Virus record (IMG/VR): IMGVR_UViG_3300007722_000097
Span: 1-26,033 of that record
Direction: 5' to 3' (one strand)
DNA from: a virus
Length of the DNA: 26,033 nt
In this document: positions 5,987 through 26,033 of the stretch, piece by piece
How the letters are laid out: every line of letters begins with the position of its first letter
Numbering within the stretch: the stretch's first letter is position 1
The notes under the pieces: generated by a model
Seen by the model: the letters and a program-made list of their open reading frames with translations, nothing else
Databases searched by the model: none
What the model was told of the DNA's origin: nothing
Made by a program: the position numbers and the translations under genes

Positions 5987-8900
5987 TTAAACAATATAAG
6001 TTGTTTGCACTTTAATGTTAGCGTTTATGCCAGCACCAACTGGAACCATAATCAATCTAACAACGTTACTTGCAATGTTTGATACAAATGTACCTATCTC
6101 ACCGTCCGGAGCAATAACAGCATACGAACTATGTGTTACTACAGCATCTTCTTGTGCTAACATTGTTTCTTGACTATGTACACTTGATGTAGCGCCATCT
6201 CTCATTTGGATGAAGTACTTAGCTGAGTGATATGCTGTGTCAGGGAAACTGTCAATTATTACCATGTTACCAGCTTGTGTAGTAATTGGTGTTTCGTCAT
6301 ACACAATAGTACCTGTTAGCTGTACCTTGTCGCCACTTTCATTACCAATGTTAATGTTACCACTTGAATCACCTAATACTGTAAGTTGTCCTTTAACAGT
6401 AAGATCTTGCTCAATTACAACACTACCTGCGGCGTTAACTGAAATTCTTACAGCACTACCAGTTACAATATTTGCAAAGTTGTTGTCACCTGCATTGAGC
6501 TGTACTGTACCAGTACCATTGGCTAGCGAATTAACTGTTGCTGTGGTTACAAATCTACGTGCATCAATCACATCACCAGCTGCCGGAGCTTCTGTAAATG
6601 TCATTGTAGTACCTGATACTGCGTAAGCCGTAATTGGTATTTGCACGATACCGTTAATAGATACTATAGTTGCGGCTGTTGTTGATGCCACGTCTAAAGT
6701 AAATGCTACTGTTGTACCGTCACCGTTAAACTGGTCTGATGCTACAACAGTAAATTCAGTACCTGGTTGGACCCATTCACTGCCATTATAGTATTCAATA
6801 CCAGATGCTGTAGTACTGTACCGTAACATACCAGCTACAGCGACGTTTGCTGTTGCACCTGGACGATTTGAGTTTGATCCAACTGGAAGAACAATAGCAC
6901 CAGTACTGTCAAATTTCACTACTGCGCCGTCTTGTACTAAGGTATTACCGGTTGAACTAAACACTGCGGCATTCTTAGCAGTGTCTATTACCATTAGTGC
7001 ATCATTACCTTGACCTTTAACTGTTACTGATGTTGCAACTTTAGTACTGTTAATAGTTGCACCAATACCAATGAATACTGATTTAGCCATTGCTACACCA
7101 CCCGGAGTAACAATTGCTCCAGTGTCAGTAGCACTTGCTTCTGTTGCATTTGAAACTGTAGCAACACCACTTGCATTAAATGTACCTGTGTTCATTACTG
7201 CGGCACTAATGTTAGCACTTGAGTTAAGGAATCCACTTACGTTAGTTGCGGCCAGTGTTGTAGTACCAGTTGCATTTAATGCACCTGCATTAACTACTGC
7301 ACCACTGATATTACCAGTTGTGTTAATTAAACCAGTTGAGTTAATAGCACCACCATTAACCACTGAAGCACTAAGATTGCCTGCTAAGTTTACAAAGCCA
7401 CTTGCAGCCAATGTAGTAAATGAACCACTACTTGCTGTTGCATTACCAATTGGAGTTGCATTAATTGACGCAAACGATGCTAGTCCGCCGATTACATTAC
7501 CAGTTGCAGTTAATGTATCTGCGTTAACTGTTCCGCCATTTAATACTGCGGCACTAAGGTTACCTGCTAAGTTCACAAAGCCACTTGCATTTACAGTAGT
7601 AAATGATGCCGCGGCCGCCGTTACATTACCAATCACGGTACCTTGGATACCACTACCTACATACAGTCTACCACCGATACCAGCACCACCAAGTACTTGT
7701 AATGCACCTTCGTCAGCGGCTGTTGCCGCGTCAGTCCCTTCAATTATCGTAGTACGGTTAAGATTCCAACTTGTTGTTGCGTGTGTGTATGTGATGTTAG
7801 CACCTACGTTTCCGTAAGCAACGTTAATACCAGCACCATCTGCTGAAGCACTATCGCCAGCACCATTGGCTACCGTAATTTGTAGATCTTCAACGTCTAA
7901 TGTAGCAACGTTAAGTGTTGTATAGTCACCTTGTACTGTTAATCCACCAGTAACAACTACATCACCACCAACGTTCAAGTTTTTAGCAATACCAACACCA
8001 CCTGCTGTAATTATAGCACCTGTTGTTGTGTTAAGACTTTGCCAGTCAGCCAACGATTTAAGTTGTAGACTAGCAACCACATTACCTGTAACACCAACAC
8101 CACCCGCTGAAACTATAGCACCTGTTGCCGCACTTGTTGAAACTGTTGCATTAGCAACGTTTAAATTATTTAAAACTTGAGTTGTATCTTGTGTTATCAA
8201 TCCAACTCTGTCTGCATCTACATTAATTACAATGTTACCACTTGCACCACTATCATTAACAGCTACAAAACTATCATCTGCTATAATTTGAGTAACATCT
8301 GATGACAATGCTGATTCTAAGTATGTTAGTGTTACTGCATCTTGTGCTGATGTTGGATCTGCAAGGTTAATAGCTGATGAGCCGTTAAAGTCAACGTCAT
8401 CTGTTGCCGCAAGAACTAAATCACCTGAAGTAGTTCCAATCCAACCTGCGGCATTTGCTGTAATTTTTGCGCCTACTGTTAATGTATTAGATGCAAATCT
8501 TAAACCATCGTTATCAATCATTAAGCCGTCTGCACTAGTAGTTACAACTCTTCCTGTTGTTAATCCACTTGCTTTTACTGTTGCTACGCTTGCTTGGCTA
8601 GCTGATACGTTACCTGTTGTGTTAATTAATCCAGTTGAGTTAATTGCTCCGCCGTTAATAATTGTGGCACTTATGTTACCAGTTGTATTAATAAAGCCAG
8701 TTGAGTTAAGTGCACCTGCGTTAACCACTGGAGAACTTATGTTACCAGCTAGGTTAGTATACCCTGCTACAGTTAAATCATTGGTAAGAGTAGCATTTTT
8801 TGCATCAACATCATATTGTGCTGTTACGTTACCAAGTAATAAATCACTGTATGATGATTCTGTAGCAATACTACCATATGTAGTACCAGTCTCTGTTGTT

Positions 8901-21873: not shown

Positions 21874-22422
21874 TTATAGCGTTCCTATTAATTCTTTATT
21901 TTTTAAATAAGCATCTCTTCTTGCCTGAGTCCATTGTGTACCTTTGATTCCTTTATTCCATGGTATATTACCTTTAAGAGTATTAGATATCTTTTGTCTT
22001 ACTTCGTTAGCAACATGTTTTCCTAAATTAGCTTTACGTATATTTTCTGCATGTTCTTTAGTTTTAGGTTGTCTATATTTTTGTTTATGTTCTTCTGTTC
22101 TTACTTTGCCGCGATTGGCTTTACTAATTTTGTGTTTAGTTTCTTCAGAATGTTTCCATCCTGTTGCACAAGCCCATTGATTTAATTTTATATTATCTAA
22201 TACGCCACCGTCAATCTTTCTACCATATTCTCTAATCAATTTATTTTCTAAATTAAATGCCTGTTCTTCGGTTAAGGCCGATTTAACAATTATGCGTCTT
22301 TCAATGGGAGGCACTACCGTATATAGATGTTTTTGTCTAATACGATACTTTGATCCCTTACCGATATAATAAGGGGTTCCTTGTTCAGTAACATACTGGT
22401 AAACATAAAATTCTGTTGTCAT
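21874..22422 (-). CDS. GIY-YIG homing endonuclease with NUMOD3-type repeats
   Basis: Residues 5-30 hold the GIY-YIG core in variant form: FYVYQYVTEQG then PYYIGKGSKYRIRQ. The catalytic Arg is probably R27 or R29 and the metal-binding Glu is E60 in LENKLIREYG. Three NUMOD3-like DNA-binding repeats follow at about 89-106 (GWKHSEETKHKISKANRGK), 120-136 and 139-152 (NEVRQKISNTLKGN), then a tail with PWNKGIKGTQW. Such free-standing enzymes cut phage genomes that lack the gene and spread by copying into the break. The gene sits as a clean insertion between tape measure and portal (16 bases after one stop, one base before the other gene's ATG) and carries its own late promoter. It appears intact. 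No intron boundary is visible in the neighbouring genes. Confidence 0.9.
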   Translation of the reverse strand: MTTEFYVYQYVTEQGTPYYIGKGSKYRIRQKHLYTVVPPIERRIIVKSALTEEQAFNLENKLIREYGRKIDGGVLDNIKLNQWACATGWKHSEETKHKISKANRGKVRTEEHKQKYRQPKTKEHAENIRKANLGKHVANEVRQKISNTLKGNIPWNKGIKGTQWTQARRDAYLKNKELIGTL

Positions 22423-22438: not shown

Positions 22439-24436
22439 CTAGTAACTGTTCTGTGCTATTTGTGATGTTAGGCTGTTGGTTGATTGCATGGCACGGAGTA
22501 TTTCGGCTAGCACTCCTGTCTGTTGATTTATTGATGCAGTGATGCTACTGCTGTCTAAACTTACGGGGATTGATTTGTTGTCTGGCAATGGTACTACTGC
22601 TTCTGTGCCGTGTAGGACTTCAGAGTACCCACTTATAGGTCCTGTACTGATGCCGCCTATGGCCATGCCAGGGGACGAAATAGCCTCACCAATAGTTTTT
22701 GGTGGTGTAAAACCAGGCGGAAGTGGCACTGGACTTGGTTCTGGGCCTTTTCCTGTTATAAAGTTTAGGAATTGTGCCATTCCAGCATTTATCTTTTCGG
22801 TCGTTTGTGCATAAGTGCCTAACAACGGTAAAAGTTTGTCTTCAAGCAACACTGCCATCTCTTGCGCGGCCCTAGTTGCTCCGGTCATTCCTGTTGTTAA
22901 TGGATCTTGGGTGTCTTTAAGTTCAGTTAGGCTAGCTAATACTCCTGCAACTCCTTCTTTACTCATCTTGATGGCTTGGTTATATACGTCAATACCTGCT
23001 TGTGATACCGCTTGCAAACTTGAATCGCCTGTTGCGTATGCACCAACGAATAACGCCTGATTTGCCCTAAATGAGCCAATCATAGCTTGTGCATATTGGG
23101 CATTGGCTTGGGCTACTGCCGTAGGATCAAACATGTTGTTTATAAATTTGTCGTATAGCAATCGGCCTTTATCGGCGGCCGCCCTGTTAGTTGCTTCGTA
23201 TATCGCCGCTTCTTGATTTATGACTGACCCGTTATATATCACTCGATCTCTAAATGCTTTCTTCTCAGTTTCTGTCATCAATGCCATTGATGCGTCTATC
23301 TGGGCCGCTACTTCTGGACCCTTTTTGGCTATCTCATTTTGGAAGGCCGCAATCTGATTCTGTTCTTGTACCTGTTTAGTTTTGGCTTTAGCATCTTCAC
23401 CGGTCAATGCCGATATTAATCTTAGATTTTCTGCATATTTCTGTGTTTCGACCGCTAACATGGCTGGATTAACTGATTGTGCTGTCCTGCGGATATTAGC
23501 CATTACCGTGGCTGTTATCTCTGCCTGTTCTTCAAAGCCATAACCTAAATTCTGTAGTTGCTCTCTTATCCGTCCGTTGTTCTGGTCAAATATTTTGCCG
23601 ACCTCTCCGACCTTGCGGGCACCTTCAGCAACACCAACTCCGCTCATGGCCAAATCGGCGGACTGCTTGCTTATTACTTTAGAGAATTGTTCTAGGGTCA
23701 GTCCAGCGCCCACACTGGCTTCACGCATACCAGACATACCATCAGCAAATATCGCACCACTGGCATTGACTGTGTTAAAGGCTTTTTCTGTCTTGGCCAG
23801 TTCCTTAGCAAGGACTTCAACTGAGAATTTTAGGAATTTTGCACTGGCTTCGGCGCCAAGTTGCATTGCCTTGCCACCAACATATATCACACTACCTATT
23901 GCGGCACCCCAACCTTTTGTGCCAGCTAGATCTTTACCTACACTAGTTAAGAAGCCACCAAGGCCACCAACTGCTCCAGTTACAGCATCTATAGCAGAAT
24001 TTAATAAGATTGTTGATACTTCAGTGCCACTAGCGCCACTTTGCAATGATTTAGTTAAATCGGCTGTGAGTTTTGTCGCACCATTGGTAAGACTTTTTCC
24101 AAATGCAATGGATGCTTCTTTAGTCCGTTCATTGGCTGCCAGTTTAACTAGTTCTTCTCTTTGTTGGAGTAGTTTACTTTTTTTAGCGTTGTCTGCGGTG
24201 GTACTGCCTAAATCATCAATGGCATCGTCAAGCGATTCGATCGAGTTAACAATTTGTTTAAAGCTAGCACGACCTTTTTCAACATCTCTATTGAGATCTT
24301 TTAGAGTCTTTGTGAAGTCAACAGAACCTTTCTTGGCCGATATGCCAAGATTTTTAAGTTCGTTGGAGAGGGCAGGAAATCTATCAACTAACTGCTCAAT
24401 CAGCTCCCGTGCCTTTTCTGCGTCTAAATCATCCAT
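22439..24436 (-). CDS. Tail tape measure / baseplate hub protein, gp29-like
   Basis: The 665-aa protein has the tape measure layout. A charged helical N-terminus (DDLDAEKARELIEQLVDRFP, then LKDLNRDVEKGRASFKQI) is followed by an Ala/Gly-rich hydrophobic stretch at about 145-195 (VTGAVGGLGGFLTSVGKDLA, IGSVIYVGGKAMQLGAEA), a long helical rod, and a C-terminal motif GPISGYSEVLHGTEAVVPLP typical of tape measure ends. In T4 this job belongs to gp29 (590 aa), which is part of the hub and sets tail length. The gene is divergent from gp26, whose product helps assemble the hub. A late promoter lies upstream at 24502-24509. The ribosome site is weak (AAGG about 14 bases away). Confidence 0.8.
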   Translation of the reverse strand: MDDLDAEKARELIEQLVDRFPALSNELKNLGISAKKGSVDFTKTLKDLNRDVEKGRASFKQIVNSIESLDDAIDDLGSTTADNAKKSKLLQQREELVKLAANERTKEASIAFGKSLTNGATKLTADLTKSLQSGASGTEVSTILLNSAIDAVTGAVGGLGGFLTSVGKDLAGTKGWGAAIGSVIYVGGKAMQLGAEASAKFLKFSVEVLAKELAKTEKAFNTVNASGAIFADGMSGMREASVGAGLTLEQFSKVISKQSADLAMSGVGVAEGARKVGEVGKIFDQNNGRIREQLQNLGYGFEEQAEITATVMANIRRTAQSVNPAMLAVETQKYAENLRLISALTGEDAKAKTKQVQEQNQIAAFQNEIAKKGPEVAAQIDASMALMTETEKKAFRDRVIYNGSVINQEAAIYEATNRAAADKGRLLYDKFINNMFDPTAVAQANAQYAQAMIGSFRANQALFVGAYATGDSSLQAVSQAGIDVYNQAIKMSKEGVAGVLASLTELKDTQDPLTTGMTGATRAAQEMAVLLEDKLLPLLGTYAQTTEKINAGMAQFLNFITGKGPEPSPVPLPPGFTPPKTIGEAISSPGMAIGGISTGPISGYSEVLHGTEAVVPLPDNKSIPVSLDSSSITASINQQTGVLAEILRAMQSTNSLTSQIAQNSY

Positions 24437-24468
24437 GGATCGTTTTTATTACCTTGTGTATTTGGTGC

Positions 24469-24476
24469 TATAAATA
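24469..24476 (+). promoter_or_regulatory. Exact T4 late promoter (TATAAATA) for gp26
   Basis: ctaTATAAATAgtg style box, an exact match. The predicted start near 24482 gives a 40-base leader with TAGGA before the ATG at 24522. It faces the minus-strand late promoter at 24502-24509, so the two 5' ends would overlap by about 15 bases. Confidence 0.75.
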
Positions 24477-24501
24477 GTGTAAAGTACTAATCAATTATAT
24501 A

Positions 24502-24509
24502 TATTTATA
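24502..24509 (-). promoter_or_regulatory. Exact T4 late promoter (TATAAATA) for the tape measure gene
   Basis: Minus-strand cctTATAAATAtata style box, an exact match. The predicted start near 24496 gives a 60-base leader to the ATG at 24436. It also covers the region upstream of the gp26 ribosome site on the other strand. Confidence 0.7.
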
Positions 24510-24521
24510 GGATTTTCGACC

Positions 24522-25382
24522 ATGGATCAAAACACTCCACAAGTTGCTTCGGCTAATCCGCTGTCCAAGCATTTTAGACAGCCCGCAATCTACTTCAAGT
24601 TGCCCAGTGGTGGCAAGTATTGGCCAGCAGATGCAATCACCATGCCAGCTACCGGTGAGATTGGTGTCATGCCAATGACTACCAAAGATGAGATAACATT
24701 AAAGACGCCAGATGCATTATTAAACGGTCAGGGCGTGGTCAACGTGATACAGAGTTGTTGTCCGGATGTCCATGATGCTTGGCAGATGCCTAGTATTGAT
24801 GTTGACGCTACGTTAATTGCGATACGGATAGCCAGCTATGGTAATCAAATGGATTTTACTGCTCAATGTCCTCACTGTAAAGTTGAAGACAGTCATGCTA
24901 TCGACCTCGGAGTAACAATGTCAAGGATTACTGCTCCTAGTTATGATGTTCCTTTAGCTGTTGATGGTCTGAAGATACACATACATCCGCAACCATATTT
25001 TAGCCTTAACAAAACTAACATGATCGCATTTGAGGAACAACAGATAGTCAGGAGTTTAGGTTCGCTAGAAGACGACCCTGTTGAAGCCAAGAAACGTTTT
25101 GACGAACATCTTGCTAAAATTATTGAAATGAACATTAACCTATTAGCTAACAGCACCAAATCTATCACAATCAGCGATGGCACTGTGGTAACCAATTCGG
25201 AACACATTGCAGACTTTTACAACAATGCTGACACTAAGGTTATTAAAAAATTACAGCAGTACTTAACAGAACTAAACGAGCTTGCTAGCATGAAGCCGGT
25301 GGATGCTGTTTGTCCAAACGACGAGTGCGGTAAAGAATTCTCCATAAACATCACATTCGACTACGCAAGTTTTTTCGTATAA
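24522..25382 (+). CDS. 26: gp26-type baseplate hub assembly protein (T4 baseplate protein family)
   Basis: The N-terminal ~130 residues (HFRQPAIYFKLPSGGKYWPA, then GEIGVMPMTTKDEITLKTPD, LLNGQGVVNVIQSC) are the signature of the T4 baseplate hub family that includes gp26 (Pfam T4_baseplate). Two cysteine pairs, C116-PH-C119 and C264-PNDE-C269, could together bind one zinc ion. In T4, gp26 is needed to build the hub but its place in the finished particle is doubtful, so a chaperone role has been considered. At 286 aa it is longer than T4 gp26 (208 aa). TAGGA lies about 9 bases before the ATG. The last codons TTT TTC GTA TAA contain a slippery heptamer, and a second reading frame follows at 25376. 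It is divergent from the tape measure gene. Confidence 0.85.
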   Translation: MDQNTPQVASANPLSKHFRQPAIYFKLPSGGKYWPADAITMPATGEIGVMPMTTKDEITLKTPDALLNGQGVVNVIQSCCPDVHDAWQMPSIDVDATLIAIRIASYGNQMDFTAQCPHCKVEDSHAIDLGVTMSRITAPSYDVPLAVDGLKIHIHPQPYFSLNKTNMIAFEEQQIVRSLGSLEDDPVEAKKRFDEHLAKIIEMNINLLANSTKSITISDGTVVTNSEHIADFYNNADTKVIKKLQQYLTELNELASMKPVDAVCPNDECGKEFSINITFDYASFFV

Positions 25383-25453
25383 GGCTCTTAACTTTAGAAC
25401 AAGCGGCAGTCGAAGAGCTGATTGACAGCTACGACAAAGAGATAAGGGCCTTA
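25370..25453 (+). promoter_or_regulatory. Probable programmed -1 ribosomal frameshift signal at the end of gp26
   Basis: The heptamer T TTT TTC (25370-25376) fits the X XXY YYZ slippery rule in the gp26 frame. After a 3-base spacer, TAAGGCTCTTA (25380-25390) pairs with TAAGGGCCTTA (25443-25453), 11 base pairs with one G-U. Inside the loop GTCG (25409-25412) pairs with CGAC (25432-25435) and AGCTG (25416-25420) with CAGCT (25426-25430). The spacer is shorter than the usual 5-9 bases unless the outer A-U pairs open. Confidence 0.65.
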
Positions 25454-25606
25454 AAAGATGATGCGTTAAGGATGGCATGGTACATGCGTGGTGCCCTGAG
25501 CTATGACGAGGCTATGCAACTCGGGCTAACTGATAGAGAACTAATCAACAAGATTATCAAAGACAATATCGAAACAACAGAAAAAACCAAGATGCCATTC
25601 TTCTAA
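25376..25606 (+). CDS. -1 frame extension of gp26 (tail-assembly-chaperone-like short frame)
   Basis: This frame reads RIRLLTLEQAAVEELIDSYD, KEIRALKDDALR, then MAWYMRGALSYDEAMQLGLT and ends EKTKMPFF. It has no ATG, GTG or TTG from its opening at 25334 to the ATG at 25472, and that ATG has no ribosome site at a usable distance (AAGG directly abuts it). Yet the first 30 codons encode a convincing amphipathic helix, so expression as an extension of gp26 by -1 slippage at 25370-25376 is the best explanation, giving a product of about 361 aa. The MAWYMRG...Y part resembles short proteins found beside gp26 in other marine T4-like phages and the second domain of tail assembly chaperones. Alternatively, a 44-aa protein starts at 25472. 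T4 has gene 51 beside 26; homology to it is not shown. Confidence 0.65.
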   Translation, partial: RIRLLTLEQAAVEELIDSYDKEIRALKDDALRMAWYMRGALSYDEAMQLGLTDRELINKIIKDNIETTEKTKMPFF

Positions 25607-25611
25607 GATAG

Positions 25612-25629
25612 TGTGGCTTTTCTGCCACA
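25612..25629 (+). terminator. Hairpin after gp26 unit (weak terminator candidate)
   Basis: TGTGGC (25612-25617), loop ttttct, GCCACA (25624-25629), six base pairs plus a possible wobble pair. No U-run follows. It lies 5 bases after the -1 frame stop and upstream of a new promoter. Confidence 0.45.
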
Positions 25630-25647
25630 TGTAACATAGTTATCCTC

Positions 25648-25676
25648 TTGACAAAACTCAAAAAAGGTGTTATATT
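25648..25676 (+). promoter_or_regulatory. Strong sigma70-type promoter for the small membrane protein
   Basis: TTGACA (25648-25653), a 17-base spacer, then TATATT (25671-25676, five of six matches). The predicted start near 25683 leaves a leader of about 95 bases. A weak late-type box, CTAAATA, lies at 25693-25699 within the leader. Confidence 0.75.
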
Positions 25677-25680
25677 ATTA

Positions 25681-25765
25681 TAGTAAGACTACCTAAATAG
25701 TAGAGCAAGATTAATTCTACGCTTTATTTTATAGTCTTGCTATTTTTAAAACGGGGCAATTCCCC
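25681..25765 (+). promoter_or_regulatory. Structured 5' leader of the membrane protein gene
   Basis: TAGTAAGACTA (25681-25691) pairs with TAGTCTTGCTA (25732-25742), 11 bp with one G-U. Inside, GTAGA (25700-25704) pairs with TCTAC (25716-25720). AGCAAGA (25704-25710) can instead pair with TCTTGCT (25735-25741), which would exclude the long stem. GGGG (25753-25756) with CCCC (25762-25765) forms a hairpin that touches the AGGAGG ribosome site. Confidence 0.55.
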
Positions 25766-25778
25766 AGGAGGAAGTAAA

Positions 25779-26012
25779 ATGGAAGTATTAACACACGTTA
25801 AGAAATGGGCGGCAGGTATCGCTGATGTAGCAGTTTCACTAATGGCAATGTTTATTGCATTAGAAATTCTACTCAAAGGATCTGCAGTTGCATTCTTACC
25901 AGCTACTGATGTTATCGGTTCAGTTACTGGCGTTATCAAAACCTTAGGAGCTGAAGGCTTAGTAGGATTGGTAGCAGTATGGGTACTATACTCAATCTGG
26001 AATAAGAAGTAA
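25779..26012 (+). CDS. Small two-helix membrane protein, 77 aa, early-type promoter
   Basis: The ATG at 25779 follows a perfect AGGAGG site by 7 bases and is preferred over the in-frame ATG at 25737, which lies inside the leader stem. The protein starts MEVLTHVKKWAAGIADVAVS. It has two hydrophobic helices, about residues 17-40 (VAVSLMAMFIALEILLKGSA) and 57-74 (GLVGLVAVWVLYSIW), joined by PATDVIGSVTGVIKTLG, and ends with basic NKK. The size and topology fit a holin or antiholin, an Imm-like superinfection-exclusion protein or a small virion membrane protein. The sigma70 promoter and very strong ribosome site predict early and abundant expression, which fits exclusion or membrane takeover better than lysis. 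The family is not recognised with certainty. It ends 21 bases before the window edge. Confidence 0.8.
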   Translation: MEVLTHVKKWAAGIADVAVSLMAMFIALEILLKGSAVAFLPATDVIGSVTGVIKTLGAEGLVGLVAVWVLYSIWNKK

Positions 26013-26033
26013 GCATAGACTTACACCATTTCC

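Follow-up and report, generated by a model that had tools for sequence, protein, structure and literature searches.

Comparative evidence for a programmed −1 frameshift at the gp26-like gene of T4-like jumbo phages and their uncultured relatives

The lambda gpG/gpGT and P2 E/E′ tail-assembly chaperones each consist of a short form and a long form that is made by −1 frameshifting near the end of the short gene (PMC5009743), and a 2016 review describes T4 as the exception to this conserved G-T frameshift of the long-tailed phages (PMC5009743). T4 gp26 and gp51 are listed among the hub assembly chaperones (PMC3004832). The phrog_150 'baseplate hub' profile covers T4 gp26 at 14–235 and T4 gp51 at 13–280, and the second match indicates that gp51 is built like gp26 but carries a C domain in addition; gp26 corresponds to the short form, and gp51, a full-length paralogue, has the fused form in a single gene of its own. 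The two forms are on separate, divergent genes, the end of T4 gene 26 has no slippery heptamer, and T4 has two separate full-length phrog_150 matches where the PA5oct, RaK2 and Phosso genomes have one place each. There is a third arrangement in P-SSM2, in which phrog_150 is split over gp26 (frame 0) and a 'gp51' C domain (frame −1), and in the cyanophages it is this short −1 C domain that is annotated as 'gp51'. The site T_TTT_TTC/T/G is also present in S-CAM22, Melnitz-3, phi-Grn1, Desulfovibrio phage 7757 and Rhizobium phage RHph_I1_9; a classical heptamer was looked for in gp26 of Vibrio K469 and phiA8-29 and is absent. An initial sequence-only reading of the locus considered here did not recall frameshifting as having been described for T4-like phages, but at gp26 it had already been described in outline, reportedly by Vladimirov et al. 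in 2022, who are said to find it conserved in several T4-like groups, with T4 itself using genes 26 and 51. We found no description of gp26 frameshifting in jumbo phages in the open-access literature, and what is added here is the breadth across jumbo phages, the covariation of the stem and a stretch of RNA that is synonymously frozen.

The sequence under study is a 26-kb virus record (26,033 nucleotides; the window), and among cultured phages it is closest to jumbo myophages, for example Phosso, Atu_ph07 and PA5oct. The gp26-like gene (Table 1) is homologous in its N domain to T4 gp26 and gp51, as seen in matches to PF12322 (T4_baseplate; E 3.6e-18, 66.5 bits against a curated cut-off of 24.5) and phrog_150 (E 4.5e-19). 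An AlphaFold2 model of the product (pLDDT 84.5) matches models of T4-like gp26 and baseplate-hub proteins in BFVD, including Aeromonas phage 25 gp26 (E 1.8e-5), and Foldseek searches of the PDB with gp26 and with the C domain gave nothing significant. We note that there are two conserved Cys pairs, at residues 116–119 (CPHC) and 264–269 (CPNDEC), with Cys residues that are invariant in 18 sequences, which suggest a zinc-binding site in the putative chaperone N domain; T4 gp26 and gp51 have Cys pairs too.

Table 1. Features of the gp26-like locus in the window.
Feature	Position	Strand	Basis
Divergent neighbour, 665 aa, possible tape measure (inferred)	22439..24436	−	BLASTP to RaK2 ORF088; position
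gp26-like gene, short form (TAC-N)	24522..25382	+	286 aa, C-terminal S-F-F-V-stop; PF12322, phrog_150, fold match
Slippery heptamer T_TTT_TTC, gp26 frame	25370..25376	+	Sequence; in phase in 45/45 loci; without synonymous change
−1 extension (TAC-C domain)	25370..25606	+	76 aa past F-F, 361 aa as fusion; homologous in 45 loci
gp26 stop codon TAA	25380..25382	+	One codon past heptamer
Stem left arm TAAGGCTCTTA	25380..25390	+	11 bp, 3 nt past heptamer
Synonymously frozen stretch	25433..25465	+	11 −1-frame codons (21–31); includes right arm and extends beyond it
Stem right arm TAAGGGCCTTA	25443..25453	+	9-bp core, compensatory changes
First possible −1 frame start (ATG)	25472..25474	+	Without spaced Shine-Dalgarno; inside predicted helix 11–38

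The gp26 gene ends in frame with AGT TTT TTC GTA TAA, a junction identical to that of P-SSM2, and the slippery heptamer noticed initially is where it was placed, one codon before the stop. It differs from the lambda slippery site, which is G_GGA_AAG, and lambda also has another gene order with respect to the tape measure. The window has TTTTTTC three times on its + strand, and a single heptamer from a single sequence is no more than suggestive; it is conservation that lifts the heptamer and the stem beyond it above chance. We compared 45 loci, 29 from uncultured IMG/VR relatives and 16 from cultured jumbo phages (e.g. Phosso, PA5oct, 121Q and RaK2), and in every one T_TTT_TTC/T lies in phase where gp26 ends, the T_TTT_TTT variant being that of XacN1 and CM1. 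The 0-frame tail past the heptamer ranges from 1 to 11 codons. Among 20 distinct sequences of the window clade there is no synonymous change at the three codons of the site, as against 0.51–0.53 at the other two invariant Phe codons, and a complete lack of it is seen at just 0.7% of gp26 codons. The residue preceding F-F is variable (S, H, N, R, D, Y or A), yet the third base of its codon is always T. With gp26 codon usage, the probability of keeping NNT-TTT over 20 lineages is ~1e-13 if the lineages are treated as independent, an overstatement, since they are related.

The −1 frame is open from 25334 to 25606 and its first ATG is at 25472, with no GTG or TTG upstream of it, just as the initial reading had it; that reading was also right that this ATG has no spaced ribosome site, as an AAGG abuts it directly. 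The extension is nearly constant in length (69–80 residues) and homologous in all 45 loci. From the gp26 stop to 25472, the −1 frame has a pN/pS of 0.35 and the other frames have 0.82 and 1.29, and after 25472 the values are 0.28 versus 1.03 and 1.70. By these in silico measures, the −1 frame is under coding selection upstream of any start codon. A helix had been proposed for the codons before 25472, and the AlphaFold2 model supports it, with a long helix (pLDDT ~88) at residues 11–38 counted from F-F in the predicted C domain. The Met at 25472 is residue 35, so a start there would cut off this predicted helix.

An explanation implied by current annotations is translational coupling, in which ribosomes that have finished gp26 reinitiate nearby and translate a short gene in its own right, for a gp51-like 'assembly catalyst'. 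Annotators have called a separate downstream gene in many of the relatives, and there are ATGA or TAATG overlaps in Phosso, 121Q, XbC2, Kaldavass and others. The expectation that relatives would have no start codon holds in part: the open −1 frame lacks ATG, GTG and TTG altogether in PA5oct and Desulfovibrio phage 7757, whereas in Phosso, Atu_ph07, 121Q, XbC2 and phi-Grn1 an ATG overlaps the gp26 stop. In the last five an extra reinitiation could give a separate C-domain protein in addition to the fusion. However, with no start before 25472 in the window and none anywhere in PA5oct and 7757, with conserved coding that begins at F-F-R, upstream of any start, and with the phase and codons of the heptamer frozen, reinitiation cannot be the conserved mechanism, and we regard coupling as a very improbable account of the locus. 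In PA5oct the conserved −1 extension (6825–7061; locus L003) is unannotated.

Kinship of the extension with the C domain of gp51 is less evident from sequence. The window C domain gave no single-protein HMM match to gp51 (Pfam, PHROG), and a profile-profile comparison of the window-jumbo C domain with that of gp51 shows a weak link (hhalign E 4.6e-4, probability 33%). Similarly, phrog_634, which is matched by the extensions of cyanophages and of KVP40-type phages, has no match in the window. With the gp51 link this weak, the argument for kinship is carried by position and the shared slippery site. In common with the described T4-like gp26/gp51 family (PF12322, phrog_150/phrog_634), the window has the homologous gp26 domain and a polyT slippery site. 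There are also departures: the C domain is ~70–80 aa in the window and the jumbo clade and ~60 aa in the known T4-like family, the gp26-like gene runs divergently from that of the presumed tape measure, and in the window clade the slippery site is followed by a conserved stem.

This stem is the 11-bp helix first noted three bases past the heptamer, and it is present with the arms listed in Table 1, enclosing a weaker branched fold. The minimum free energy of 25377–25480 is −28 kcal/mol compared to a shuffle mean of −19.3 (z −2.8). The first 50 nt past the site fold in an ordinary manner in the window clade (z ~−0.3, in L007, a near-identical copy), so that the unusual stability depends on the inclusion of the distal arm. 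Of 400 random anchors within the window, 21 have a stem of at least 11 bp, and the stem alone therefore proves nothing. RNAalifold analysis of 22 relatives recovers the same stem as a 9-bp core, with eight of the nine pairs kept in all 22 sequences. Compensatory changes across relatives are present in this core: one branch (L033–L035) has C-G to U-A and A-U to G-C replacements, and there are G-U variants elsewhere. The 11-bp stem is the best in both cells paired and covariation when compared with 500 shuffles and with slid registers (0/500); the compensatory changes represent few independent events, and the two outer pairs are often broken. All sequences of the window clade have the same AGG CTC and GCC codons in the stem arms. 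Outside this clade, there is an unusual fold at the site in Phosso, Atu_ph07 and XacN1 and none unusually stable in many of the enteric jumbo phages, indicating that the stimulator differs between groups.

The low synonymous change at 25433–25465 was not equalled in any of 2000 permutations of a scan statistic (20 sequences). The right arm accounts for only part of this frozen stretch, and a pseudoknot or other RNA element is possible. A scan for a second conserved helix pairing with the frozen 3′ stretch, as in a pseudoknot, found none, and there is no Rfam match in 24400–26033. We tentatively suggest, while thinking it somewhat less likely than its opposite, that the shift in this clade is set by a larger RNA element comprising the 9–11-bp stem, its ~50-nt loop and the frozen stretch, perhaps as a pseudoknot or junction; the wide occurrence of the frameshift among T4-like and jumbo phages would likewise imply that the separate genes 26 and 51 of T4 descend from an ancestor with the frameshift.

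The stem and the site bear also on transcriptional slippage, by which RNA polymerase slipping on the T6 run would yield mRNAs of two lengths and the same two proteins. The site is indeed a homopolymeric T run and the same fusion is obtainable from it. However, most lineages keep six T followed by C when TTT TTT would encode the same residues, the conserved stem just downstream fits ribosomal pausing, and RNA polymerase slippage generally needs longer runs than T6; we consider this explanation very unlikely. A sequencing error or a recently split gene is excluded by conservation, as the same architecture is found in 45 loci and there is purifying selection in the −1 frame.

On the comparative evidence, this locus very probably yields a tail-assembly chaperone in two lengths, 286 and 361 aa, through programmed −1 frameshifting in the manner of lambda G/GT, and the initial proposal that gp26 plus its extension is the T4-type counterpart of that pair is supported. 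In the window virus we infer the slippage itself, its efficiency and the chaperone role. Most ribosomes would terminate at 25382 and release gp26 (TAC-N), and a minority, slowed by the downstream stem, would slip by −1 on T_TTT_TTC, both tRNA-Phe re-pairing as TTT TTT. The slipped ribosomes would then read the −1 frame to 25606 and produce the long form (TAC-NC) with its helical C-terminal domain. Lambda G/GT suggests by analogy that the N domain may cover the tape measure protein and that tail-tube subunits may be recruited by the C domain, with neither domain being left in the virion. The chaperone role is suggested by this analogy together with the listing of T4 gp26 and gp51 as hub assembly chaperones. 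The PA5oct record has ESI-MS/MS notes on the neighbours of gp26 and none on gp26. In CBB, gp26 is named 'structural protein', a name that, if it is based on virion data, would be at odds with a chaperone of purely transient role.

The gene to the left of gp26 had been read as a gp29-like tape measure. There is an adjacent gene of 665 aa, with weak similarity to RaK2 ORF088 (BLASTP E 2e-8) and the same position in the jumbo phages, but it is divergent from gp26 and not downstream of it, there is no tape-measure HMM match in Pfam or PHROG, and we regard it as a candidate tape measure gene. Between the portal and presumed tape measure genes there is a leftwards gene (21874–22422, − strand) for a NUMOD3-containing protein that matches the homing-endonuclease family phrog_314; the jumbo relatives have no NUMOD3 gene at this junction. 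At the other side of the locus, a 77-aa hydrophobic protein is encoded at 25779–26012 (+ strand) with a strong ribosome site (AGGAGG), preceded by a promoter-like TTGACA-17-TATATT at 25648–25676. It has no Pfam or PHROG match and may be a small membrane protein, for instance a holin.

The gp26 frameshift signal is present in every T4-like jumbo phage and uncultured relative among the 45 loci, and the records of these genomes show two separate 'hypothetical' or 'baseplate hub' genes, or miss the second half, as in PA5oct. Correct annotation would give many jumbo phages, a large group, a named tail chaperone and provide a ready test set for −1 shift signals. The data also support the idea that in T4 the short and long forms have been separated into genes 26 and 51.
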